Virus record (IMG/VR): IMGVR_UViG_3300015371_000031
Location: 1-62,494 of that record
DNA length: 62,494 nt
From: a virus
Reading direction: 5' to 3' (one strand)
Below are positions 1 through 62,494 of the stretch, in pieces (the first letter of the stretch is position 1; every line of letters begins with the position of its first letter). A program made the translations under genes and the position numbers. The notes under the pieces are model-generated. The model made no database searches and had not been told where the DNA came from. It saw only the letters and a list, made by a program, of their open reading frames with translations.

Positions 1-139
1 CAGGATCACCAGCGGAGCGCAGCCGACCCGAGTAGCACCTCCCCAGGGCGTGTACCTCGCGACGGGGAGACGGTCATCGGGTTGGAGCAGCCAAGCGCTC
101 CGCGAGTCTTGGCAGTAGGAAAACGCAGTTTTGAAGGAA

Positions 140-183
140 GCCGCGCACGGTAGAAGCTGGCCGGTTCGACTCCGGCCCGGGGC
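140..183 (+). ncRNA. tRNA-like minihelix A (degenerate acceptor stem)
   Basis: A T arm (GCCGG, loop TTCGACT, CCGGC at 160-176) is followed by CGGGGC at 178-183. This can pair with GCCGCG at 140-145 except for one G-G mismatch at the fourth pair. There is no D arm or anticodon arm, only a 14-base linker. The copy at the other contig end (62246-62287) has GCCCCG and pairs perfectly, so the mismatch here may be a contig-end error or a variant. It lies upstream of a small hairpin (217-229) and the first early gene. Confidence 0.55.
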
Positions 184-216
184 CTTGAGCAGCACGCACG
201 ACCAACCGCAACCGCC

Positions 217-229
217 GGCGCTCCGCGCC
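217..229 (+). promoter_or_regulatory. Hairpin between minihelix A and the RBS
   Basis: GGCGC (217-221), loop TCC, GCGCC (225-229) form a short perfect stem just upstream of the ribosome binding site AGAAGGAGGA of the gene at 249. The same order (minihelix, short hairpin, RBS) recurs at 3797-3811 and 6497-6513. Confidence 0.45.
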
Positions 230-248
230 AGGCAGAAGGAGGAGCGCA

Positions 249-419
249 ATGACCGCTCTCGCACTCACCCAGCACGGCCTGCTCCACCGCGTCCTGAGCG
301 TCGTCGCCGATCGCGCCGAGTGGCTGTTCGACGCGCCGCTCCACATGCACCCCGTCGTCGCGGCCATGCTGGTCGTCGAGATGGTCGCCCACGTCGTCCA
401 CGAGCACGTCAGCCACTGA
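249..419 (+). CDS. Small hypothetical protein (56 aa)
   Basis: ATG start with a strong ribosome binding site (AGAAGGAGGA, 6-7 bases upstream). The product is 56 residues, with a moderately hydrophobic, possibly amphipathic second half rich in His and Val and a His-rich end (HVVHEHVSH). No family is recognised. It is the first gene after minihelix A. A second, truncated copy runs off the right contig end (from 62353), differing at four residues, which reflects the terminal redundancy of the assembly. Confidence 0.7.
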   Translation: MTALALTQHGLLHRVLSVVADRAEWLFDAPLHMHPVVAAMLVVEMVAHVVHEHVSH

Positions 420-446
420 CACTCCTTTTCCTTCCAGCCCACAACG

Positions 447-462
447 GCCGGCTCGAGCCGGC
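447..462 (+). promoter_or_regulatory. Palindromic hairpin upstream of RBS
   Basis: GCCGGCTCGAGCCGGC is a perfect 16-base palindrome directly before the AGGAGG of the gene at 476. A near-identical arrangement (GCCCGC-TCGAG-GCGGGC then AGGAAGG) is found at 6497-6513. It may be an mRNA structure that affects initiation or processing, or a DNA-binding site; the sequence does not decide between these. Confidence 0.4.
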
Positions 463-475
463 AGGAGGCTTCACG

Positions 476-691
476 ATGAACCCGCTCTATTGCGTAGCGG
501 CACACTGCGTGCCCGTTAGCTTCGCCGCCCTGCCGATGGTTGCTGCCGCCTTCGGGCTGCTGCCCGAGGGTCGCGTCGCGTTCGAGAGCACGACCCTGTT
601 CCTGGTCGCCACGGTCGCCCTGGTCGCGGTCATGGCGCTTGTTGTCGGAGCCGGCCTCGTGAGCGCGCTCCGCGCTGAGAGGAGTGAGTGA
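476..691 (+). CDS. Small membrane protein (71 aa)
   Basis: ATG start with AGGAGG upstream. Two hydrophobic stretches (about residues 13-29 and 40-63) predict two membrane spans with a short charged turn (PEGR) between them and a cytoplasmic-looking tail. The last codons (ERSE, stop) are built from the 19-base junction motif GAGAGGAGTGAGTGACATG, which also supplies the RBS and start of the next gene. The function is unknown; a membrane-acting early host-takeover role is only a guess. Confidence 0.75.
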   Translation: MNPLYCVAAHCVPVSFAALPMVAAAFGLLPEGRVAFESTTLFLVATVALVAVMALVVGAGLVSALRAERSE

Positions 692-692
692 C

Positions 693-896
693 ATGGCCAC
701 CACGACTAGGCGCACCTACTGCTGCGGCCAGTGCGGCCGCGAGCTCAAGAACGAGCACTGGATTTACTCCCGCTTCACCGGCGCGCGGTACTGCTGGCCA
801 GGCGAGGGTTGCGCGACCAAGCGCGAGTTCGACAAGCGCATGGCTCGCGCCGCGAAGCACCACGCAGAGCGCGAGCGCGCGGAGCAGCAGAGCTGA
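693..896 (+). CDS. Zinc-ribbon small protein (67 aa)
   Basis: The start was set at ATG 693 rather than the in-frame GTG 684, because GAGGAG lies at proper spacing before it. The N-terminal half carries YCCGQCG (about residues 9-15) and YCWPGEGC (about 33-40), which look like the two knuckles of a compact zinc ribbon. The C-terminal half is a basic/acidic helix (ARAAKHHAERERAEQQS). It probably binds nucleic acid or protein; the precise role is unknown. Confidence 0.75.
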   Translation: MATTTRRTYCCGQCGRELKNEHWIYSRFTGARYCWPGEGCATKREFDKRMARAAKHHAERERAEQQS

Positions 897-903
897 TGAA
901 CGA

Positions 904-945
904 GACCCTGGACGGCCACGGCCGGTTCGACTCCGGCGCAGGGTC
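904..945 (+). ncRNA. tRNA-like minihelix B
   Basis: GACCCTG (904-910) pairs fully with CAGGGTC (939-945) as a seven-pair acceptor stem. A T arm, GCCGG-TTCGACT-CCGGC (921-937), stacks on it with one spare base. Only ten bases (GACGGCCACG) replace the D arm, anticodon arm and variable loop. It starts seven bases after the stop codon of the preceding gene. It is far too short (42 nt) to be a decoding tRNA. Confidence 0.7.
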
Positions 946-946
946 A

Positions 947-1014
947 TGCGCTGGCCTGGTCAAGCCTGTACGTGCAGGTGGCCGTTGACGGCGGTTCGAT
1001 TCCTCCCCGGCGCA
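947..1014 (+). ncRNA. tRNA-like element C, longer and degenerate
   Basis: TGCGCTG (947-953) pairs with CGGCGCA (1008-1014), including one G-U. A T arm with the loop TTCGATT (995-1001) has one mismatch in its stem (GGCGG/CCTCC). The intervening 36 bases contain CCTG-TACGTG-CAGG, which could be a shortened anticodon-like hairpin, but no normal D arm or seven-base anticodon loop can be drawn. It lies one base after minihelix B. It could be a decayed tRNA or a larger member of the same minihelix class. Confidence 0.5.
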
Positions 1015-1045
1015 CATCGAAAGAGAAGAGAGAGAGGAGTACGAG

Positions 1046-1534
1046 ATGAAGGTTTTGCTGACATCGCTGGTCGCTGCGCTCGCGCTGGCGAGCACGGCCA
1101 CGGGAGCTCCGGCTCCTACCCACCCGGCCACGAGCCGGATGGGCTGGTACTGGAACGAGATCGCGTCGTACTACGCGGGCCGCCCCATGACGGTCGCGTT
1201 CACGACGACCACCTCGAGCGCGTACACGGACGGGTTCGGTCACGCCTACCTGGGCGAAGTCGCCAAGGACAAGCTGACGTGGCTGTTCCTCCATGCGCGC
1301 GACCCGAAGCGCGGCCCGCAGGGCGGCGTCGTCGGGATCATGAGCCTCGTCCACGAGGCGCTTCACAACCGCGACCGCGACATGAGCGAGCGGCAGGTCG
1401 GCATCCTCGGGTGCCAGCTGGTGCCTGACGCGCTCGAGCGCTTCTTCGGAGTGCCGCAGTCGTCCCAGCTCGGCCGGCGCTACGCGGCGCTTGCTGAGGA
1501 GTGCGCCCAGCCGTGGCTGGCGCGAGAGGAGTGA
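1046..1534 (+). CDS. Exported protein with HExxH metalloprotease-like motif (162 aa)
   Basis: ATG start after a purine-rich RBS (AGAGAGAGGAG). Residues 1-20 form a clear signal peptide (MKVLLTSLVAALALASTATG, Ala-rich cleavage region). The mature part is polar and contains VHEALHNRD near residue 107, an HExxH zinc-binding motif as in zincin metallopeptidases, followed by a Cys-containing helix. No third zinc ligand can be assigned with certainty. An exported early hydrolase or surface-acting protein is a reasonable inference; a chance HExxH cannot be excluded. Confidence 0.65.
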   Translation: MKVLLTSLVAALALASTATGAPAPTHPATSRMGWYWNEIASYYAGRPMTVAFTTTTSSAYTDGFGHAYLGEVAKDKLTWLFLHARDPKRGPQGGVVGIMSLVHEALHNRDRDMSERQVGILGCQLVPDALERFFGVPQSSQLGRRYAALAEECAQPWLAREE

Positions 1535-1539
1535 GCAAC

Positions 1540-1884
1540 ATGAGCGACAAGATGACGGTCGAGGTCACGCTTTTCGGTGAGACTCGTCCCGTTCAGTTCT
1601 GGGCCGTCGAGGCGGACAGGATCGACCTCCGTTCAACCGGCACGGTCGTGGTGGGGCGATTCCCCACCGGCACGAAGCTGCACCGCTCGATCCTGACGCT
1701 GTGGAAGCGTCACCAGGAGCGCGGCGACAAGGTGTACAGCATGCGCGGCGAGACCGCGGCAGTGGTCAACGGCGAGGAGTACGTCGCTGACTTCACGCTC
1801 TACACGCACAACCGCAACGTCGGCCGCATCGTCGGCTGGTACGACAGCGAGATCGTCCCGTCGGGCGTCGTCGCCCGCTGGTAG
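1540..1884 (+). CDS. Hypothetical protein (114 aa)
   Basis: Starts at ATG 1540 in the recurrent junction GAGAGGAGTGAGCAACATG, whose TGA ends the previous gene. The protein has alternating polar and hydrophobic segments suggesting a mostly beta fold, with KLHRSILTLWKRHQ as a likely helix in the middle. No cysteine cluster, signal or membrane span is seen. The family is not recognised. Confidence 0.75.
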   Translation: MSDKMTVEVTLFGETRPVQFWAVEADRIDLRSTGTVVVGRFPTGTKLHRSILTLWKRHQERGDKVYSMRGETAAVVNGEEYVADFTLYTHNRNVGRIVGWYDSEIVPSGVVARW

Positions 1885-1901
1885 GGAGAGGAGTGAGCGA
1901 C

Positions 1902-2096
1902 ATGCTGACCAAGGAGGAGCAGGAGCGCGTCGACGAGATGCGCAGCGAGTTCGGCGATCGCGCAGCAGACGTCCTCGAGGCGTCGCTCCACGCGACCCGC
2001 GTGTTCAACGAGACTTCCGGCGGCGAGTTCACCGCCGAGTCGTGGACGGCAGGACTCACGGAGCTGTTCAGCCGCCTGCCCGAGAGGAGTGAGTGA
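1902..2096 (+). CDS. Small helical protein (64 aa)
   Basis: ATG 1902 follows GAGAGGAGTGAGCGACATG. Highly charged and probably all-helical, beginning MLTKEEQERVDEMRSEFGDR. The final ERSE codons again come from the junction motif that starts the next gene. The function is unknown. Confidence 0.7.
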   Translation: MLTKEEQERVDEMRSEFGDRAADVLEASLHATRVFNETSGGEFTAESWTAGLTELFSRLPERSE

Positions 2097-2097
2097 C

Positions 2098-2508
2098 ATG
2101 TACGGACGCGAGTATCGGTTGGGCCGGTGCCCGAACTGCTCGATCCGGCCGGCGTTCGCCTGGCTGGCGAGCACGGGCCTGCGCCTCGAGGACGTGCGCT
2201 GCCCGCGCTGCGACTACCCGCTCCAGCTGACGAGCCGGATGGTCTACAACGTCCGGTCGCTGACGGACGACGAAGTCGTGGACGCGCTCCGGAGCGCGGA
2301 GGCTCGCGCGTTCGAGCTGCACAAGGATCACTGCGAGATGGTCGAGGCGTGGGAGCGCGACCTCACGGCTGTTCGCACGACGAACGGCGACAGCATGGAG
2401 GAGTACAAGGCGCGGCTGAACCGCGACCGCTACGCCGAGGCGGCTGAGCACCAGCGCAAGCGGCTGGCACGGCTGCGCAAGGGTCTGGCCAAGCTGCAGA
2501 CCGCGTGA
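2098..2508 (+). CDS. Zinc-ribbon protein with coiled coil (136 aa)
   Basis: ATG 2098 lies two bases after the stop of the previous gene. CPNC (about residues 10-13) and CPRC (about 34-37) form a classic four-cysteine zinc ribbon. The C-terminal half (residues about 70-136) is a long charged helix, likely a coiled coil, rich in Arg, Lys and Glu. It probably binds nucleic acid or acts as a small adaptor. The family is unknown. Confidence 0.75.
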   Translation: MYGREYRLGRCPNCSIRPAFAWLASTGLRLEDVRCPRCDYPLQLTSRMVYNVRSLTDDEVVDALRSAEARAFELHKDHCEMVEAWERDLTAVRTTNGDSMEEYKARLNRDRYAEAAEHQRKRLARLRKGLAKLQTA

Positions 2509-2516
2509 CGTACGTA

Positions 2517-2557
2517 GCCCCGATCGGAGATCAGCGGGTTCGACTCCCGCACGGGGC
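2517..2557 (+). ncRNA. tRNA-like minihelix D
   Basis: GCCCCG (2517-2522) pairs with CGGGGC (2552-2557) and encloses a perfect T arm GCGGG-TTCGACT-CCCGC (2534-2550). An 11-base linker ATCGGAGATCA takes the place of the D and anticodon arms. It begins nine bases after the stop of the zinc-ribbon gene. Further down, GTCCGG...CCGGAC at 2611-2630 adds another hairpin before the next gene's RBS. Confidence 0.7.
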
Positions 2558-2650
2558 CATGGTGCTCGACTGGCGCGACGCCGGCCGAGTCAGAACCGAG
2601 TCCGGCGGATTCCCCGGACGAGCCAATCGCGGAAGAGAGAGGAGAGAACG

Positions 2651-3076
2651 ATGCACGCCGTATTCGTGACGCTCCAGGATTTCGATCGTCTGCGCGTCAC
2701 CGCGTGGACGAACTGGGACGTGGCGCAGGACGAGTGGACGCGACTCGACGACCGGAGGCGAGCGGGCGAGCTCCCGCACGTCAGGTTCTTCGAAGTGCGC
2801 TCCTCGGACGATCCGAACTACAACCGCTCGCCGTTCGAGCCGTTCCTGTCGCTCCCTCCGGCCGAGAGGCCGCAGTGGGTGACGCTGACCAAGGGCGAGC
2901 GGCACGACCTGCTCGCGCTCGGTCGCAAGGCTGGCAACCTCGAGGACGCAGCCAGCGCCATGTTCTCCGAGCTGGCATCCAGCTATCGGTGGGAGCACCT
3001 GCCCGCCGTAGACATCAGCGACTACACCTGGGCGGCCGCGCGCTTCTGTTTCCCGCGCGAAGCCGAGACCTGGTGA
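2651..3076 (+). CDS. Hypothetical protein (141 aa)
   Basis: ATG start after GAGAGAGGAGAGAACG. The sequence is rich in Trp and acidic residues, without cysteine clusters or membrane spans. It includes YRWEHLPAVDISDYTW near the C-terminus. It follows minihelix D. The family is not recognised. Confidence 0.75.
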   Translation: MHAVFVTLQDFDRLRVTAWTNWDVAQDEWTRLDDRRRAGELPHVRFFEVRSSDDPNYNRSPFEPFLSLPPAERPQWVTLTKGERHDLLALGRKAGNLEDAASAMFSELASSYRWEHLPAVDISDYTWAAARFCFPREAETW

Positions 3077-3093
3077 GAAGGAAGGTGGACGAG

Positions 3094-3393
3094 ATGACGC
3101 AGCCGCTCGAGAAGCTGGAGCTGCGCGAGTCAACGGTGCGCGCGACGTTCAGCCGCGAGCTCTACAACGAAGAGGCCGAGAACCTGGGCCAGCGAGTGGC
3201 CGAGGCTCTCGACGAAGGCGACCGCTACGGCGAGCGCTGGGAGGTGCTGTACGGCGGCAAGAGCAGCGTCGATCTCGGGTGGGCGATCACCGGAGTCGAG
3301 GCGCGCGGACTGTCGCTCGACGAGGTGCGCGCGTTCACCGACTGCGTGACGCAGTTCCTGGACGACGCCGACGAGATCGAGAGGGGTGAGTGA
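3094..3393 (+). CDS. Hypothetical protein (99 aa)
   Basis: ATG 3094 is preferred to earlier in-frame codons because GAAGGAAGG precedes it. Charged, mixed alpha/beta; its end, EIERGE, overlaps a GGGG variant of the recurrent junction motif that starts the next gene. No family is recognised. Confidence 0.7.
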   Translation: MTQPLEKLELRESTVRATFSRELYNEEAENLGQRVAEALDEGDRYGERWEVLYGGKSSVDLGWAITGVEARGLSLDEVRAFTDCVTQFLDDADEIERGE

Positions 3394-3394
3394 C

Positions 3395-3730
3395 GTGGCG
3401 AACAGCTACCAGCTGATGCAGCGACTCGGTCGCGCTCTGTGCGAGAGCGAGGCGGGCGAGGTGTTCGAGGCGGATCGTAGCCTGCTCGTCTGGAGCGCCG
3501 CTCGGCGCTCTGAGTGGGACGGCGAGCGCGCTCCGTCGATGGTGTGGGAGTCCGGCCCGTACGGCTGGACGTTCGCGTTCACGGGTCACGGCGGGCAGTT
3601 CCTCGGAGACGAGGAAGGCAACCTGCTCGAGACCGACCAGGCGACGCGTGACGCTTACGCGGCCTTCCTGGCCGCGGGCTACTACCTCGAGTGCGAGACC
3701 GGCTACATGCTGGCCGCGTACCGAGCGTGA
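3395..3730 (+). CDS. Hypothetical protein (111 aa)
   Basis: GTG start at the end of GAGAGGGGTGAGTGACGTG, two bases after the previous stop. Contains SMVWESGPYGWTFAF and an Ala/Tyr-rich C-terminal helix. No motif points to an activity. Confidence 0.7.
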   Translation: MANSYQLMQRLGRALCESEAGEVFEADRSLLVWSAARRSEWDGERAPSMVWESGPYGWTFAFTGHGGQFLGDEEGNLLETDQATRDAYAAFLAAGYYLECETGYMLAAYRA

Positions 3731-3741
3731 AGGATGAACGA

Positions 3742-3788
3742 GACCCCGACAGGATGTATGCGAGGCGGTTCGACTCCGTCCCGGGGTC
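3742..3788 (+). ncRNA. tRNA-like minihelix E
   Basis: GACCCCG (3742-3748) pairs fully with CGGGGTC (3782-3788). The T arm is GGCGG-TTCGACT-CCGTC (3764-3780), with one G-U pair. The 15-base linker is ACAGGATGTATGCGA. The ten bases before minihelices B and E are alike (GATGAACGA). A hairpin GGCGC-ACGGA-GCGCC (3797-3811) and an RBS follow, repeating the cassette order seen elsewhere. Confidence 0.7.
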
Positions 3789-3839
3789 ATGTACGCGGCG
3801 CACGGAGCGCCACGGAGAGCACGAGGAGGCGGAAGGACG

Positions 3840-3908
3840 ATGCCTAGGGTCAAGACGCAGGTCAAGAGCGCTCGCGGTCGCGAGTACACCTGCAACGGGT
3901 GCGGCTAG
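3840..3908 (+). CDS. Micropeptide, truncated zinc-knuckle (22 aa)
   Basis: ATG with GAGGCGGAAGG upstream. The 22-residue product begins MPRVKTQVKSARGREYTC and ends CNGCG, stop. The N-terminus looks like that of small actinophage zinc-ribbon proteins, but only the first CxxC is present. The TAG stop overlaps the RBS (TAGGAGGA) of the next gene. It may be a remnant of a longer zinc-ribbon gene or a functional micropeptide. Confidence 0.5.
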   Translation: MPRVKTQVKSARGREYTCNGCG

Positions 3909-3916
3909 GAGGAATC

Positions 3917-4276
3917 ATGTTCGGCGCAGACGACAAGTTGAGCCGCGCGGCAAGCGCCGTGTGGGAGATCGAGTCGCACTCGTGGATGGACTTTGCGATG
4001 GACGGCTCCGGCGAGCTGGGCGACCGGATCGCCAAGCACCACAACGACTGCAAGTTGGCGGCCGTGCGAGCAGCCGGGTTCGCGCCGGCCGAGTACAACA
4101 ACGCGCTCCGCGATCGCCTGGTCAACGAGGACGGCACGATGTCCTACCGCGTCCACCAGCTCCTCTGCACGCTCGAGGTGGAGGACGAGGTCGAGTACCA
4201 CCTGAACCACACCTACGTCGTCACGTGCGGCGAGCTCAGCTCGCTCGCATACCTGACAGGAGGCGATCAGTCATGA
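3917..4276 (+). CDS. Hypothetical protein (119 aa)
   Basis: ATG 3917 sits six bases after TAGGAGGA. Acidic, probably helical in the first two thirds (AASAVWEIESHSW, AAVRAAGFAPAEYNN), with no recognised domain. Its stop overlaps the next start (ATGA), implying translational coupling. Confidence 0.75.
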   Translation: MFGADDKLSRAASAVWEIESHSWMDFAMDGSGELGDRIAKHHNDCKLAAVRAAGFAPAEYNNALRDRLVNEDGTMSYRVHQLLCTLEVEDEVEYHLNHTYVVTCGELSSLAYLTGGDQS

Positions 4277-4572
4277 GCGCACCGAAGCTGACATTCGAGT
4301 TCGTCGGCTACCACTGGCCGTGGAGCGGCGACCTGTTCTACATGACCAACGAGGACAACCTGGAGGCCCGCGTACTCGTGGACAGCCTCGGCGAGACGTG
4401 GGTGGACGTCCGCGCGATCCCCGAGGGCGGGTTCTTCCACAGCGAGCGGGTCGTGGCCTATCGCAGCTACGACACCGCCGACCGGATCGCGGAGAAACTG
4501 GCTGCGTGCGGGTTCGGAAACCGCAAGGAAGCCTACGGCGCAGCGGGCCGCGTTCAGCAGAAGGGGGTGTGA
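4273..4572 (+). CDS. Hypothetical protein (99 aa)
   Basis: ATG overlaps the previous TGA by four bases. A beta-rich N-terminal part (LTFEFVGYHWPWSGDLFYM) is followed by a C-terminal helix (YDTADRIAEKLAACGFGN). The function is unknown; length and position fit a typical phage early accessory protein. Confidence 0.75.
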   Translation: MSAPKLTFEFVGYHWPWSGDLFYMTNEDNLEARVLVDSLGETWVDVRAIPEGGFFHSERVVAYRSYDTADRIAEKLAACGFGNRKEAYGAAGRVQQKGV

Positions 4573-4575
4573 GAC

Positions 4576-4782
4576 GTGGCCATCGGCAACGGGAACCCGG
4601 CCGTGTACGAGCGCGGCACGGAGCACGACTTCAGCGTGTACCAGGGCAGCTACCTGGTCGCGAACGTATGGCACTCCGACAAAGGCGAGTGGACTGTCGA
4701 GCTGCCAGACGGCCAGCTCTACCGCGAACCCAACCGGGTCGCGGCCGTCAACCGCTGCGTGCTGATCGCAGCGCGAAGGTGA
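4576..4782 (+). CDS. Hypothetical protein (68 aa)
   Basis: GTG start three bases after the preceding stop, with AAGGGGG upstream. A small beta-rich protein (YQGSYLVANVWHSDKGEWTV) ending in a short helix (NRCVLIAARR). No family is recognised. Confidence 0.65.
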   Translation: MAIGNGNPAVYERGTEHDFSVYQGSYLVANVWHSDKGEWTVELPDGQLYREPNRVAAVNRCVLIAARR

Positions 4783-4799
4783 AGGGAGGAGTGATCGAC

Positions 4800-5213
4800 A
4801 TGCCGCTCACGTGGAACGTGGAGCACGTCGAGAACCACCAGGAGGTCACCACCCTCCACACGGACGAGGGCGACCAGTGGCACCCGGTCACCATGGCGCT
4901 CGTCTACCTGACGATGTCGACCGGGATCGGTCGCATCACGGAGGCCAACGCGGGCGAGTTCTACGCTCGCACCAACCTCCTCGAGCGGCTGGTCGGCCCG
5001 CAGCTGATCCGGCCGGAGGGAGAGGACGGCGAGCGCCCCACGGGCTACGCCGCCTTCATCACGCCAGACGAGGTGCGAGCTCACGTCGGACTTGCGACCA
5101 ACGCCTGCTTCAAGGACGAGCCGCGGAGTAAGTGGCTCAAGCGGGTTCTCGATCGCGAGATGAGCACCGTTGTGGCGCGCTACGGAAAGGCAGTCGTCAC
5201 CACGGCTGCGTAG
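4800..5213 (+). CDS. Hypothetical protein (137 aa)
   Basis: ATG 4800 follows GGGAGGAGTGATCGAC. Mixed alpha/beta protein; NVEHVENHQEVTTLHTDEGD at the N-terminus and a basic C-terminal helix (KWLKRVLDREMSTVVARYG). No motif found. Confidence 0.75.
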   Translation: MPLTWNVEHVENHQEVTTLHTDEGDQWHPVTMALVYLTMSTGIGRITEANAGEFYARTNLLERLVGPQLIRPEGEDGERPTGYAAFITPDEVRAHVGLATNACFKDEPRSKWLKRVLDREMSTVVARYGKAVVTTAA

Positions 5214-5224
5214 GGTCGCGTTCG

Positions 5225-5251
5225 GTCGCACCTCTCACGGGGGTGCGGCCG
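5225..5251 (+). promoter_or_regulatory. Stable hairpin in early intergenic gap
   Basis: GGTCGCACC pairs with GGTGCGGCC over nine pairs (one G-U), enclosing a nine-base loop. It lies in the 68-base gap before the gene at 5282. No U-run follows, so it is not a normal intrinsic terminator; it may be an mRNA processing or stability element. Confidence 0.4.
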
Positions 5252-5281
5252 TGGCAATCCTGCCCAGACCAAGGAGGAGTC

Positions 5282-5740
5282 ATGGACGCGGTTACGCACG
5301 TGACGAAAGTCACGATGCCAGCCGGCGAGTATTTCGTCGGCGACCCTTGCTACTCGGTTCCAGACGCGCGCTGGAGCGAGTGGCTGAGCAAGGCCGGGAT
5401 CGACGAGGAGCCGATCCCGCAGTTCATGGTCGCGAGCCTGGACGGCATGGCCGTGCTGGGCATCGGCACCGACCACGGCGACGGCGTCTACTTCGACCAG
5501 GAGCGCCGCGAGTACCCAGTGGACGCGGGAATGATCGGCCTCGTGCCGGTCGAGCTCGTCGACCTGGGCAACAAGCCGGAGCCGTTCGGCACGCACCGCA
5601 TGACGTGGGACGCGCCGTTCACCTGCACGTACGACGAGTCGGGCGGCACGATCGTGCTCGGCTCAGTTCGCATCCCGACCGACTGGGACGCGATCGAGGA
5701 GGACTTGGACGACTGGTCAGACGACGACGAGGAGGACTGA
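5282..5740 (+). CDS. Conserved phage protein with GDPCY motif (152 aa)
   Basis: ATG 5282 after AAGGAGGAGTC. The N-terminal segment AGEYFVGDPCYSVPDARW matches, from memory, a phage-conserved family in which GDPCY is followed by an aromatic/acidic stretch and GDG(V/I)Y. HGDGVYFDQ is present near residue 73. The tail is extremely acidic (DDWSDDDEED). The activity of the family is not known to me. Confidence 0.75.
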   Translation: MDAVTHVTKVTMPAGEYFVGDPCYSVPDARWSEWLSKAGIDEEPIPQFMVASLDGMAVLGIGTDHGDGVYFDQERREYPVDAGMIGLVPVELVDLGNKPEPFGTHRMTWDAPFTCTYDESGGTIVLGSVRIPTDWDAIEEDLDDWSDDDEED

Positions 5741-5743
5741 GCG

Positions 5744-5965
5744 GTGGACGTTCCCTACGACACGCTGCCTTATCGGATCCTGCACGACCCGTCCGGCGAC
5801 GAGGCCGAGGCGGCAACCAGGAACGCGGCGATCACTGCCGCGCGCACCCTGCTCGAGGACAACCAGGGCGACGGGCAGTGCCGCATCTTTCGCGGCCGCT
5901 GGGTCGTCGACATGGTGTGGCTCCACGACGAGGTGCTCAAGCACACGGACATGAAGGAGAGGTGA
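5744..5965 (+). CDS. Hypothetical protein (73 aa)
   Basis: GTG start three bases after the previous stop. Predicted alpha/beta; central helix AATRNAAITAARTLLED and C-terminal WVVDMVWLHDEVLKH. No recognised domain. Confidence 0.65.
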   Translation: MDVPYDTLPYRILHDPSGDEAEAATRNAAITAARTLLEDNQGDGQCRIFRGRWVVDMVWLHDEVLKHTDMKER

Positions 5966-5970
5966 GAGCG

Positions 5971-6444
5971 ATGGAGGCGTCCGGCTCCATGAAGTGCGAG
6001 CGCTGCTCTGTGTACGGCCGCGATCGGTACGCCACGACGCGGCAGGCGTGGCGGGAGTCGGGCGACTCAGACCACTGGCCCGATCGCGTGACCTACCGCT
6101 GCGACGAGTGCGCAGCCGCGCTGCGCGACCATGCCAAGCTGGTCAGCATCACCATCACGTCCGACGCGCCGCTCGCGACACCTCGAGGAGCGCCGCGCGA
6201 GGTCGAGCGCCGCAAGGCCAGGACGACCGGCACCTACGTCGTCCTCTACGACCGCGGCCGTTCCGACCCGGAGCGCGCAGAGGCGAAGGAGCAGGGCTAC
6301 GAGTGGCTGCGCTGGGAGACGATCTGCGAGGAGCACGGCAGCGTCTGCAGCCACCCGACGCAGCGACTGGCGCGGTCGTTCATGGCTGCGCCGGAGGAGT
6401 GGTGCGAGGCGTGCGGCGAGCTCGTGGCCGTCGCCAGCAAGTGA
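5971..6444 (+). CDS. Multi-cysteine putative zinc-binding protein (157 aa)
   Basis: ATG with GAAGGAGAGGTGAGAGCG upstream. CERC (about residues 9-12) and CDEC (about 38-41) form one zinc ribbon. A second group of Cys/His (CEEHGSVCSH and WCEACG near the C-terminus) could form another. The TGA stop is part of the first acceptor strand of minihelix F. It probably binds nucleic acid; the role is unknown. Confidence 0.75.
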   Translation: MEASGSMKCERCSVYGRDRYATTRQAWRESGDSDHWPDRVTYRCDECAAALRDHAKLVSITITSDAPLATPRGAPREVERRKARTTGTYVVLYDRGRSDPERAEAKEQGYEWLRWETICEEHGSVCSHPTQRLARSFMAAPEEWCEACGELVAVASK

Positions 6445-6486
6445 CCCCGATCGGATCCAGGGCGGGTTCGACTCCCGCCCGGGGTC
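6443..6486 (+). ncRNA. tRNA-like minihelix F
   Basis: GACCCCG (6443-6449) pairs perfectly with CGGGGTC (6480-6486), with the T arm GCGGG-TTCGACT-CCCGC (6462-6478) and a 12-base linker ATCGGATCCAGG. The first bases overlap the stop codon of the upstream gene (TGA at 6442-6444). A hairpin with a TCGAG loop (6497-6513) and a strong RBS follow before the gene at 6529. The linker starts ATCGGA, as in minihelix D. Confidence 0.72.
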
Positions 6487-6496
6487 ATCCAACGAC

Positions 6497-6513
6497 GCCC
6501 GCTCGAGGCGGGC
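6497..6513 (+). promoter_or_regulatory. TCGAG-loop hairpin before RBS
   Basis: GCCCGC-TCGAG-GCGGGC lies between minihelix F and AGGAAGGAGGG. It is the counterpart of the palindrome at 447-462 and of the short hairpins at 217-229 and 3797-3811. Confidence 0.45.
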
Positions 6514-6528
6514 AGGAAGGAGGGAGTC

Positions 6529-6840
6529 ATGACGACTTCCAAGCCGCGGCAGATGCCGCTCGAGGCCGAGAAGAGGATGGGGCCGACGTGCTCCGTCTTC
6601 AACTGCCACGTGAACAACGCCGGCCGCCGCGCCGACGAGGAGTTCGTGGCGCTGTTCGGCCAGAAGCGGTTCGACCGCCACATCCGGCCGTACCACGTCG
6701 AGGGCATCATGTCGCTGTTCCAGTGCAAGCCGAACAAGTGGCAGCTGGTCTGGGTCGCGCTCGTCTCGGCGTTCGTGAACGAGGACAGGCGACCGCACTA
6801 CGGGTCGTCCCCCGACGACACGTGCGCGTTCGGGGAGTGA
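6529..6840 (+). CDS. Hypothetical protein (103 aa)
   Basis: ATG with a very strong RBS (GGAAGGAGGGAGTC). Contains paired Cys (GPTCSVFNCHVNN) near residue 20 and a Trp/Phe-rich centre (MSLFQCKPNKWQLVWVALV). No membrane span long enough to be sure; the function is unknown. Confidence 0.75.
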   Translation: MTTSKPRQMPLEAEKRMGPTCSVFNCHVNNAGRRADEEFVALFGQKRFDRHIRPYHVEGIMSLFQCKPNKWQLVWVALVSAFVNEDRRPHYGSSPDDTCAFGE

Positions 6841-6845
6841 GAGCG

Positions 6846-7070
6846 ATGCCCAGCCAGACCCTGTACAGGTTCCAGCCTGTCGGCTGGGACGTATTCGATC
6901 GTCGCGAGAACCAGCCTGAGACTGGCACGCTCGTCGTGAAGTGCCAGCCTGCCGGGTGTCCTCGCAACGGCACGATGGGCCACTGCTTTGTCGAGGACGC
7001 TGACACGGGTCACTTCTACGGACTCGTCCAGGTTGCGTCGCTCGAGCGCGTGGGCCGAAGGATCAGGTGA
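6846..7070 (+). CDS. Hypothetical protein (74 aa)
   Basis: ATG five bases after the previous stop. Contains CQPAGCPRNGTMGHC, a possible metal-binding loop, in an otherwise beta-rich small protein. The family is unknown. Confidence 0.65.
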   Translation: MPSQTLYRFQPVGWDVFDRRENQPETGTLVVKCQPAGCPRNGTMGHCFVEDADTGHFYGLVQVASLERVGRRIR

Positions 7071-12173: not shown

Positions 12174-12194
12174 GTCGGAGCGGCCAACTACCAA

Positions 12195-12225
12195 GCGGGG
12201 CCCTTCGGGGCCCCGCTTTTTTTTT
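12195..12225 (+). terminator. Intrinsic terminator of the early operon
   Basis: GCGGGGCCC (12195-12203), tetraloop TTCG, GGGCCCCGC (12208-12216) followed by nine T residues. It is a textbook rho-independent terminator placed 22 bases after the last early gene and just before a new promoter. Confidence 0.95.
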
Positions 12226-50635: not shown

Positions 50636-51252
50636 GCGACACGAACAGCGAGTGGTACGCCACCATGGAGGAGCTCAAGTACGCGCTCGAGCTCACCAAC
50701 ACGGCGCACCTGGACGGCGACATCCCGCGCGCGCTCGAGGCCGCCGGTCAGGGGATCGACGAGGCGTGCGGGCGCACCTTCGTGCTCGACGGCGACTCCA
50801 CCCACGTGCGGTGGTACTCGCCCACGAACCCGCGCACGATCGAGATCGACGACCTGGCGGTCGTGACGAGCGTCATGACGGACGTAGACGGCAACGGCAC
50901 CTTCGAGACGACCTGGACGCGCAACACCGACTACGTGCTCGAGCCGCTCAACTCTGTCGAGGACGGCCGTCCGTTCGAGCGCCTGCGCGTCCACTCGCGC
51001 GGAGGGAAGGGGTGGTGGCCGTGCTGGGAGCGCTCCGTCCAGGTCACGGGCCAGTTCGGCTGGCCGAGGGTGCCGAAGTCGGTCAACCAGGCGTGCCTGA
51101 TAATCGCCACCAAGCTGATCCGGCGCATGAGAGACGCGCCGTTCGGCGTCGTGACGATCGGCCTCGACGGGGCGGCCGTGCACATCGCGCGGAACGATCC
51201 CGACGTCACGTTCCTCCTGGCCGCGTACACGCGGACGTACCCCTTCGCCTGA
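50632..51252 (+). CDS. Head-tail connector / adaptor (206 aa)
   Basis: ATG in an ATGA overlap. A helical N-terminus (MEELKYALELTNTAHLDGDIPRAL-type), RTIEIDDLAVVTSV and VNQACLIIATKLIRRMRDAP fit the gp6/gp15-type connector proteins that bind the portal. The gene order, right before terminator and tail tube genes, supports this. Confidence 0.78.
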   Translation: MSDTNSEWYATMEELKYALELTNTAHLDGDIPRALEAAGQGIDEACGRTFVLDGDSTHVRWYSPTNPRTIEIDDLAVVTSVMTDVDGNGTFETTWTRNTDYVLEPLNSVEDGRPFERLRVHSRGGKGWWPCWERSVQVTGQFGWPRVPKSVNQACLIIATKLIRRMRDAPFGVVTIGLDGAAVHIARNDPDVTFLLAAYTRTYPFA

Positions 51253-51671: not shown

Positions 51672-51675
51672 CGGA

Positions 51676-61931: not shown

Positions 61932-62245
61932 GGAGGAGTACCAAGAAAGTCCAAAGCCAGATACGACGCGCTCCGCTCAAAGATTCACGAGCCGCTACGG
62001 AGGCGCCCCCCAGGAAAACAGGACAAGGGGGAAGGAACCGGTGGGAGCCGGGGAAAAGCAGAAAGCCCGTCGGCGCAGCCGAGATCAGGGTGGCAAGGAG
62101 ACGTCAGGCGCAGCCAAGTCTGCGCGCAGGCCGGTGAGCGAGTACAGCGGGTCGGACGAAGTCGAGTCAGTGCGAAAGGCTCGGCGGAGAGTCGAAGGCG
62201 AAGCAGCCGGAACCGCGCGCGACGAGACACGCCTGACAGGGAGCA

Positions 62246-62287
62246 GCCCCGCACGGTGAACTGGCCGGTTCGACTCCGGCCCGGGGC
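62246..62287 (+). ncRNA. tRNA-like minihelix G (right-end copy of A)
   Basis: GCCCCG (62246-62251) pairs perfectly with CGGGGC (62282-62287); the T arm is GCCGG-TTCGACT-CCGGC (62264-62280); the linker is CACGGTGAACTG. It is the repeat partner of minihelix A with an intact acceptor stem. Confidence 0.7.
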
Positions 62288-62352
62288 CTTGAGCAGCACG
62301 CACGACCAACCGCAACCGCCGGCGCTCCGCGCCAGGCAGAAGGAGGAGCGCA

Positions 62353-62494
62353 ATGACCGCTCTCGCACTCCCCCAGCACGGCCTGCTCCCCCGCGTCATG
62401 AAGGTCGTCGCCGATCGCGCCGAGTGGCTGTTCGACGCGCCGCTCCACATGCACCCCGTCGTCGCGGCCATGCTGGTCGTCGAGATGGTCGCCC
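62353..62494 (+). CDS. Partial second copy of first early gene
   Basis: ATG 62353 with AGAAGGAGGA upstream. Runs off the contig after 47 codons. Differs from the left copy at four residues (Thr to Pro, His to Pro, Leu to Met, Ser to Lys), nearly all from A/C exchanges. Most likely the same gene seen twice. Confidence 0.55.
   Translation, partial: MTALALPQHGLLPRVMKVVADRAEWLFDAPLHMHPVVAAMLVVEMVA

Follow-up and report, generated by a model that had tools for sequence, protein, structure and literature searches.

The virus record IMGVR_UViG_3300015371_000031 of IMG/VR, analysed here over its whole length of 62,494 bases (the window), contains six short tRNA-like elements in which an acceptor stem and a T arm are joined by a linker, and which we refer to as minihelices. 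The evidence supports the view that these minihelices are a structured RNA family under selection, and members of the family are also present in numerous actinophages and Actinomycetota genomes. At a probability that we put near 0.6, the minihelices punctuate an early polycistronic RNA for tRNA-type processing, a proposal in which the cleavage, the enzymes, the docking of the linker and the role of a small neighbouring hairpin are deduced from sequence.

Six minihelices in the window

All six elements lie on the plus strand and between genes, as found by reading of the sequence and by a strict descriptor scan, and they occur where the preliminary description had placed them, with offsets of at most 1-2 nucleotides (nt). 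Minihelix 1 (139-184) lies in the first early gene's leader and has one acceptor mismatch (GCCGCG versus CGGGGC). Minihelix 2 (904-945) starts 7 nt past the stop codon of the open reading frame (ORF) at 693-896, minihelix 3 (2516-2558) about 8 nt past that of the ORF at 2098-2508 and minihelix 4 (3742-3788) 11 nt past that of the ORF at 3395-3730, while minihelix 5 (6443-6486) overlaps that of the ORF at 5971-6444. Across the window, the distance from upstream stop to element ranges from -2 to 11 nt. Minihelix 6 (62245-62288), a near-copy of minihelix 1 with a perfectly paired acceptor, is placed at the other end of the contig, at the 3' side of a non-coding leader of ~670 nt. The architecture of a short acceptor and a 5-bp T arm stood up in outline, the T stem being in fact 5-6 bp and the stack 12-13 positions long, with a mismatched acceptor/T-stem junction in the copies at 904, 2516 and 3742. 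The GG that had been claimed for the early part of every linker was found in each of these short copies.

Two covariance models, both resting on subset alignments (A3 and A5) since the full MAFFT alignment A2 misregisters the ATGGTCG class, were applied to the window. Model R1, trained on 33 elements from the window and other phages, found the six elements at E-values of 2e-4 or lower, and its next match came only at 0.33. Because R1 contains window copies, model R2 was built from 24 elements of other phages, with the sequences of the window and of L008 excluded. With filters off and both strands searched, R2 ranked the same six elements first to sixth at E-values from 4e-6 to 0.13 (0.0044, 0.0039, 1.5e-4, 0.13, 4.3e-6 and 6.3e-6 for minihelices 1 to 6). 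The preliminary description had called for a covariance-model search, and a model trained on other phages alone recovered every window element as its top six. The strict descriptor gave five matches in the window versus none in 60 dinucleotide-shuffled windows; taken with the independent model, these controls confirm the original observation.

The two ends of the contig share a near-identical 250-bp segment consisting of a minihelix and the first gene (139-390 and 62245-62494), the upstream flanks of which are unrelated to each other. This repeat is either an end duplication or an assembly variant of a leader, and minihelices 1 and 6, being near-copies within one repeated end segment, are not independent of each other.

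A structured RNA family

The family consensus comprises N(-1), six acceptor pairs beginning with G1-C72, the linker, six T-arm pairs, the loop TTCRANY, the 3' acceptor strand, R73 and C74, with a 12-bp acceptor/T stack as in tRNA. The linker of ~8-16 nt falls into two classes, ATGGTCGNAGG and AAYGGTTTTC, and its GG is invariant; in longer copies from the Gordonia phage VanLee (e.g. CTC-TGGT-GAG) the GG lies in the loop of a tiny hairpin that resembles a D arm, in keeping with the likeness to D-loop G18-G19 that had been pointed out earlier. G1-C72 is present in 113/130 and R73-C74 in 120/130 members, and a CCA is encoded in 3/130. In the lineage of the window and L008 the stack is often extended by a G(-1)-C73 pair, as in three of the window copies, and the 3' side reads C-A/T-T with loss of R73-C74.

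In alignment A3, 99.5% of the stem cells pair, versus 69.6% in shuffled and 37-56% in slid controls. Real tRNAs among matches of the pattern scan were flagged by ARAGORN. Clean tests of covariation used search patterns that put no constraint on the acceptor. The pattern ATGGTCGNAGGNNNGGTTCGANTCC, applied to viral contigs and to 84,980 prokaryote genomes, yielded 135 usable matches with 26 different acceptor sequences (GCCCCG/CGGGGC, GGGTGG/CCACCC and GTATAG/CTATAC among them), and all six acceptor pairs form in 127 of these matches, versus 41% in shuffles. For the second linker class, found with the pattern AATGGTNTTCN{2,6}GGTTCGANTCC in stretches of 26-58% G+C, at least five contiguous acceptor pairs form in 20 of 21 matches, versus 2.4 expected. 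The selection on RNA structure that had been suggested from the window copies is thereby borne out by acceptors that played no part in the search.

Position between genes

By our own gene calls, the window minihelices punctuate an early-type operon of small unknown ORFs on the plus strand (249-6840), for which the label "early" is inferred from its position and small-gene content. A probable end of this operon is marked by an intrinsic terminator at 12193-12225 (+), which has a T run, unlike the minihelices. An identity of the minihelices themselves with intrinsic terminators was rejected, as a T run is absent at every window element.

Gaps between genes in named phages were analysed with the depositors' gene tables, and most of the minihelix matches in these phages fall in unannotated intergenic DNA. 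All 16 elements of VanLee are intergenic and all 16 of its gaps of at least 60 nt are filled, in a span of which gaps make up 18%; the corresponding gaps are filled in 11/12 cases in Indlulamithi and in 7/11 in both Fowlmouth and Papyrus. The median spacing is 8 nt from stop codon to element and 41 nt from element to the next start. The punctuating position therefore holds as first described: the elements sit on one strand between a stop codon and the following start, and they can occupy as many as all of an operon's gaps. Minihelices also overlap some annotated coding sequences, namely that of gp53 in Indlulamithi (L129 12938-12983) and those of gp43, gp47 and gp56 in Fowlmouth (L130 4983-5022, 5845-5890 and 9439-9489), and because of these overlaps some of the four starts are probably annotated too far upstream.

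In mycobacteriophages a hairpin follows within a few nt 3' of the element and precedes the ribosome-binding site, with mean z-scores of -2.8 in Fowlmouth, -2.4 in Papyrus and -1.6 in Indlulamithi. Small hairpins occupy the same place in the window at 3797-3811 (GGCGC-ACGGA-GCGCC; z -0.74), after minihelix 4, and at 6497-6513 (GCCCGC-TCGAG-GCGGGC; z -1.33), after minihelix 5, in each case ahead of the next ribosome-binding site; both are on the plus strand and neither is significant alone. Two other window gaps hold plain hairpins in place of minihelices, and the corresponding gaps of the cluster M phage GenevaB15 (L278 8545-11956) contain a plain stem-loop together with a small hairpin and the ribosome site CACACGGAGAAGGGA. 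Such plain hairpins, in the window as in cluster M, and the placement of the elements directly after stops could be taken to mean that the minihelix protects the end of an uncut mRNA as a structural block against exonucleases, which would give each cistron its own stability. We regard this as quite unlikely, in that a plain hairpin would suffice for the task and the T loop, GG, G1-C72 and R73-C74 would be superfluous.

The same data bear on the notion that the elements are functionless degenerate tRNA genes or chance GC-rich repeats. The window is indeed GC-rich, and at L129 10931-11079 Indlulamithi has an acceptor and a T arm together with an anticodon-arm-like hairpin and no clear D arm, possibly a step between tRNA and minihelix; set against covarying stems, filled gaps, strand bias and the lack of matches in shuffled sequence, however, this notion is scarcely credible and is refuted for the family overall. 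A recent mobile repeat was likewise rejected, as stems and linkers vary between copies within one genome.

The preliminary description fared less well with a longer variant at 947-1014 (+), in tandem with minihelix 2. It has an 8-bp acceptor (TGCGCTGG/CCGGCGCA) and an anticodon-arm-like hairpin, but its T stem contains a C.U mismatch, its fold has a z-score of -0.5 and R2 matches just its 3' part (980-1014; rank 8, E-value 1.5). It is a weak candidate, possibly a degenerate tRNA or a chance repeat.

Distribution across phages and hosts

By record title, 75 of the 76 matches in prokaryote genomes belong to Actinomycetota; the remaining match, in a Treponema metagenome-assembled genome, does not form the acceptor and was discarded. 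Among 19 whole records, 18 had matches, and in each of these all matches were on one strand and mostly in one region. There are 16 minihelices in VanLee (15 of them within 72-81.5 kb), 11 in Indlulamithi (35.0-42.4 kb), 10 in Fowlmouth (33.8-40.6 kb), 9 in Papyrus and 10 in the record of L008. A megablast search of window positions 1-7000 against named phages gave no match, and a terminase search found only a 100% fragment (L009) plus distant named phages.

The examples from outside the actinophages are few and come from streptococcal phages and haloarchaeal viruses. Four copies in Streptococcus phage Javan207 separate the segments of one non-coding stretch of 1.2 kb, and in Halovirus HSTV-2 a single copy lies between genes 90 and 89, with a hairpin after it. 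Two of the inter-minihelix segments of Javan207 (L283 3362-3935) are closed by complementary ends (TATCACC/GGTGATA and TACACC/GGTGTA) and resemble small RNAs freed by cutting at minihelices. In VanLee, ARAGORN calls a tRNA-Val at a minihelix (L134 25227-25317), and annotated phage genomes may contain false tRNA calls of this kind. The VanLee genome, which has the most minihelices of those analysed, codes in addition for a Ro-like RNA-binding protein (L134 10752-12368); in bacteria, Ro binds Y RNAs that mimic tRNA.

The Pleft RNA of cluster A phages

A member of the family is found in the Pleft leader of cluster A mycobacteriophages, immediately upstream of the first early gene, in most cases with the linker replaced by a much longer insert. 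The acceptors covary (GGGTAG/CTACCC, GGGATGA/TCATCCC, GGGGCAG/CTGCCC and GGGTGG/CCACCC), and the distance from the putative Pleft start to the end of the tRNA-like structure is 523 nt in D29 and 540 nt in SWU1. The Pleft RNA of L5 has been described as very abundant, stable and processed, with a length of ~500 nt (482-532) from a transcription start site at 51,672; ~90% of it ends at 51,140-51,190, where no evident stem-loop terminator is noted, and part of the region cannot be deleted and cloned segments of it are toxic to M. smegmatis (PMC5712189). For Kampy, another report places the most transcribed region upstream of gene 88 (PMC4626039), and directly before that gene we find a GGACAG/CTGTCC A-C structure whose loop is shortened. 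The abundant Pleft RNA of cluster A thus very likely carries a diverged minihelix at its expected 3' end, to judge from covarying acceptors and distances. The D29 leader (L136, reverse strand 590-865 and 1044-1148) also has three serial TTGACA-type promoter-like sites before the tRNA-like element, and these could account for the three RNA peaks that are reported for L5.

The ~90% fall of L5 transcripts around the mapped position of the element (PMC5712189) and the presence of every copy in the transcribed strand would also be consistent with a transcription signal, either an attenuator or a put-like antitermination site read by RNA polymerase. This is very unlikely in our estimation: the elements are without a T run, in contrast to the ordinary terminator at 12193-12218, up to 16 attenuators in series would shut the operon off, and it is the features of tRNA ends that are conserved.

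Another alternative is that the released minihelix is itself the product, a stable decoy or sponge for tRNA-binding host enzymes or for defences that target tRNA, with the operon as a mere carrier. The ATGGTCGNAGG and AAYGGTTTTC linkers are strongly conserved across phages of different hosts, beyond what RNase P needs in model substrates, the copies per genome are numerous, and the toxicity of the L5 Pleft region (PMC5712189) might be accounted for in this way. The single copy per gap and the near-constant distances to stop and start argue for a role in cis, however; an element without an anticodon would not deceive anticodon nucleases, and the element is followed by a hairpin and a ribosome-binding site. 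A decoy is for these reasons an unlikely explanation.

Processing by tRNA enzymes

The position and serial arrangement of the minihelices favour the cutting of the early polycistronic RNA. RNase P RNA cleaves model substrates made of an acceptor and a T arm, using a 12-bp ruler and pairing with R73-C74-C75 (PMC11143913), so that the literature bears out the activity on such substrates on which the preliminary description had relied. The sequence determinants of RNase P (G1-C72, R73-C74, the T loop and the 12-bp ruler) are present in the family overall. With CCA so rarely encoded, RNase Z would not be barred from acting.

We envisage that the minihelix folds as an acceptor/T-arm stack of 12-13 positions, with the linker GG probably docking on the T loop as D-loop G18-G19 do. 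Host RNase P would then probably cut on the 5' side, directly after the stop codon of the upstream gene, and the 3' side would probably be cut by a 3' tRNA enzyme (RNase Z) or be trimmed by exonucleases. The early polycistronic RNA would in this way give rise to gene-sized mRNAs whose ends are defined, and the small hairpin that comes after the element and ahead of the ribosome-binding site would shield the 5' end newly formed on the downstream mRNA.

Several observations weigh against this sequence of events. The window copies end in C-A-T or C-T-T instead of R73-C74, and in the window and L008 the R73-C74 contact with RNase P would be lost unless the G(-1)-C73 pair shifts the cut. The post-element hairpins have no significance in VanLee (z -0.6) or in the window (z -0.2), and the covariation of the A3 stems is partly forced, as the descriptor had helped to select the sequences. 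The position of the element in L5 is a coordinate inference made through D29 and SWU1, and the end of the L5 RNA is read as termination in PMC5712189. Our assessment is that the proposal of processing marks is partly supported, in that the structured family, the GG motif and the punctuating position have held.

Relation to known RNAs

The elements have a tRNA-type 12-bp acceptor/T stack with a TTCRANY loop. In the window ARAGORN predicts no tRNA gene, and Rfam gives no match to the tRNA cloverleaf with anticodon arm (RF00005) at gathering cut-offs. A search with Rfam 15 at gathering score over the window and 16 relative loci returned one true tRNA-Gln only, and nothing at the elements. Membership in the mascRNA-menRNA family (RF01684) was rejected on a window score of 20.2 versus a gathering score of 42.5 (E-value 2). 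For bacterial Y RNA (YrlA) the elements have likewise no Rfam match, no search aimed at YrlA having been made. By the tests applied the minihelix is neither a tRNA nor a mascRNA, yet it would work like tRNA punctuation.

Animal mitochondrial transcripts provide a close analogy for such an arrangement, with tRNA-shaped marks between genes from between which the mRNAs are cut out; the mitochondrial marks are functional tRNAs, whereas the phage minihelices have no anticodon arm and their cutting is proposed. The mascRNA and menRNA, at which RNase P and RNase Z set the ends of the host transcript, are similarly tRNA-like without a functional anticodon, but they are 3' ends of mammalian long non-coding RNAs. 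The RNase P model substrate AT1, built from the acceptor and T arm of tRNA-Phe, resembles the minihelices in its stacked acceptor/T arm, its T loop and its lack of an anticodon, and RNase P RNA cuts substrates of this type at the tRNA site (PMC11143913); AT1 is synthetic, whereas the minihelices are natural, lie within mRNA and have a conserved GG linker. The phage RNAs known to be cut by host RNase P, which are the phi80 M3 RNA, the C4 antisense RNA of P1/P7 and the T4 gene 32 mRNA (PMC11143913), are single and of other design, unlike a repeated intergenic series.

Among repeats beside gene starts of the right arm, the SAS/ESAS of cluster K and CR1-CR4 of cluster M have no T loop and consist of sequence repeats or plain stem-loops, and the ESAS authors argue against RNA pairing (PMC3203893). 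SAS was rejected as an identity for the minihelices, since GGGATAGGAGCCC before starts gives two matches with two mismatches, at chance level and away from the elements. The Pleft RNA of cluster A (L5, D29, StarStuff and Kampy) is alike in its expected end at a tRNA-like structure with a covarying acceptor and an A73-C74 type end; most of the cluster A copies have a far longer insert, and the available portions of the Pleft papers (PMC5712189, PMC4626039) mention no tRNA-like structure.

A description of the minihelix family was not found in full-text searches of the open-access literature, and the family appears to be undescribed. The earlier statement that no phage system of this kind had been described holds for that literature with one qualification: the abundant cluster A Pleft RNA (PMC5712189, PMC4626039), the end of which had been unexplained, very likely carries a diverged member.

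Implications

We are evenly divided on the broadest formulation, that this is an undescribed viral RNA family of Actinomycetota phages and, with fewer examples, of streptococcal phages and haloarchaeal viruses, through which host tRNA maturation cuts polycistronic viral RNA and sets the 3' end of Pleft RNA in L5-type phages. The minihelix can meanwhile serve as a marker for correcting the annotation of gene starts. If the processing reading is true, many phages whose hosts are used in medicine and industry would have a tRNA-punctuation system in their mRNA that is made from minimal tRNA mimics. It would give a testable account of how the very abundant Pleft RNA of L5 and D29 acquires its 3' end, and would offer natural minimal substrates of RNase P and a new handle on the control of early genes.

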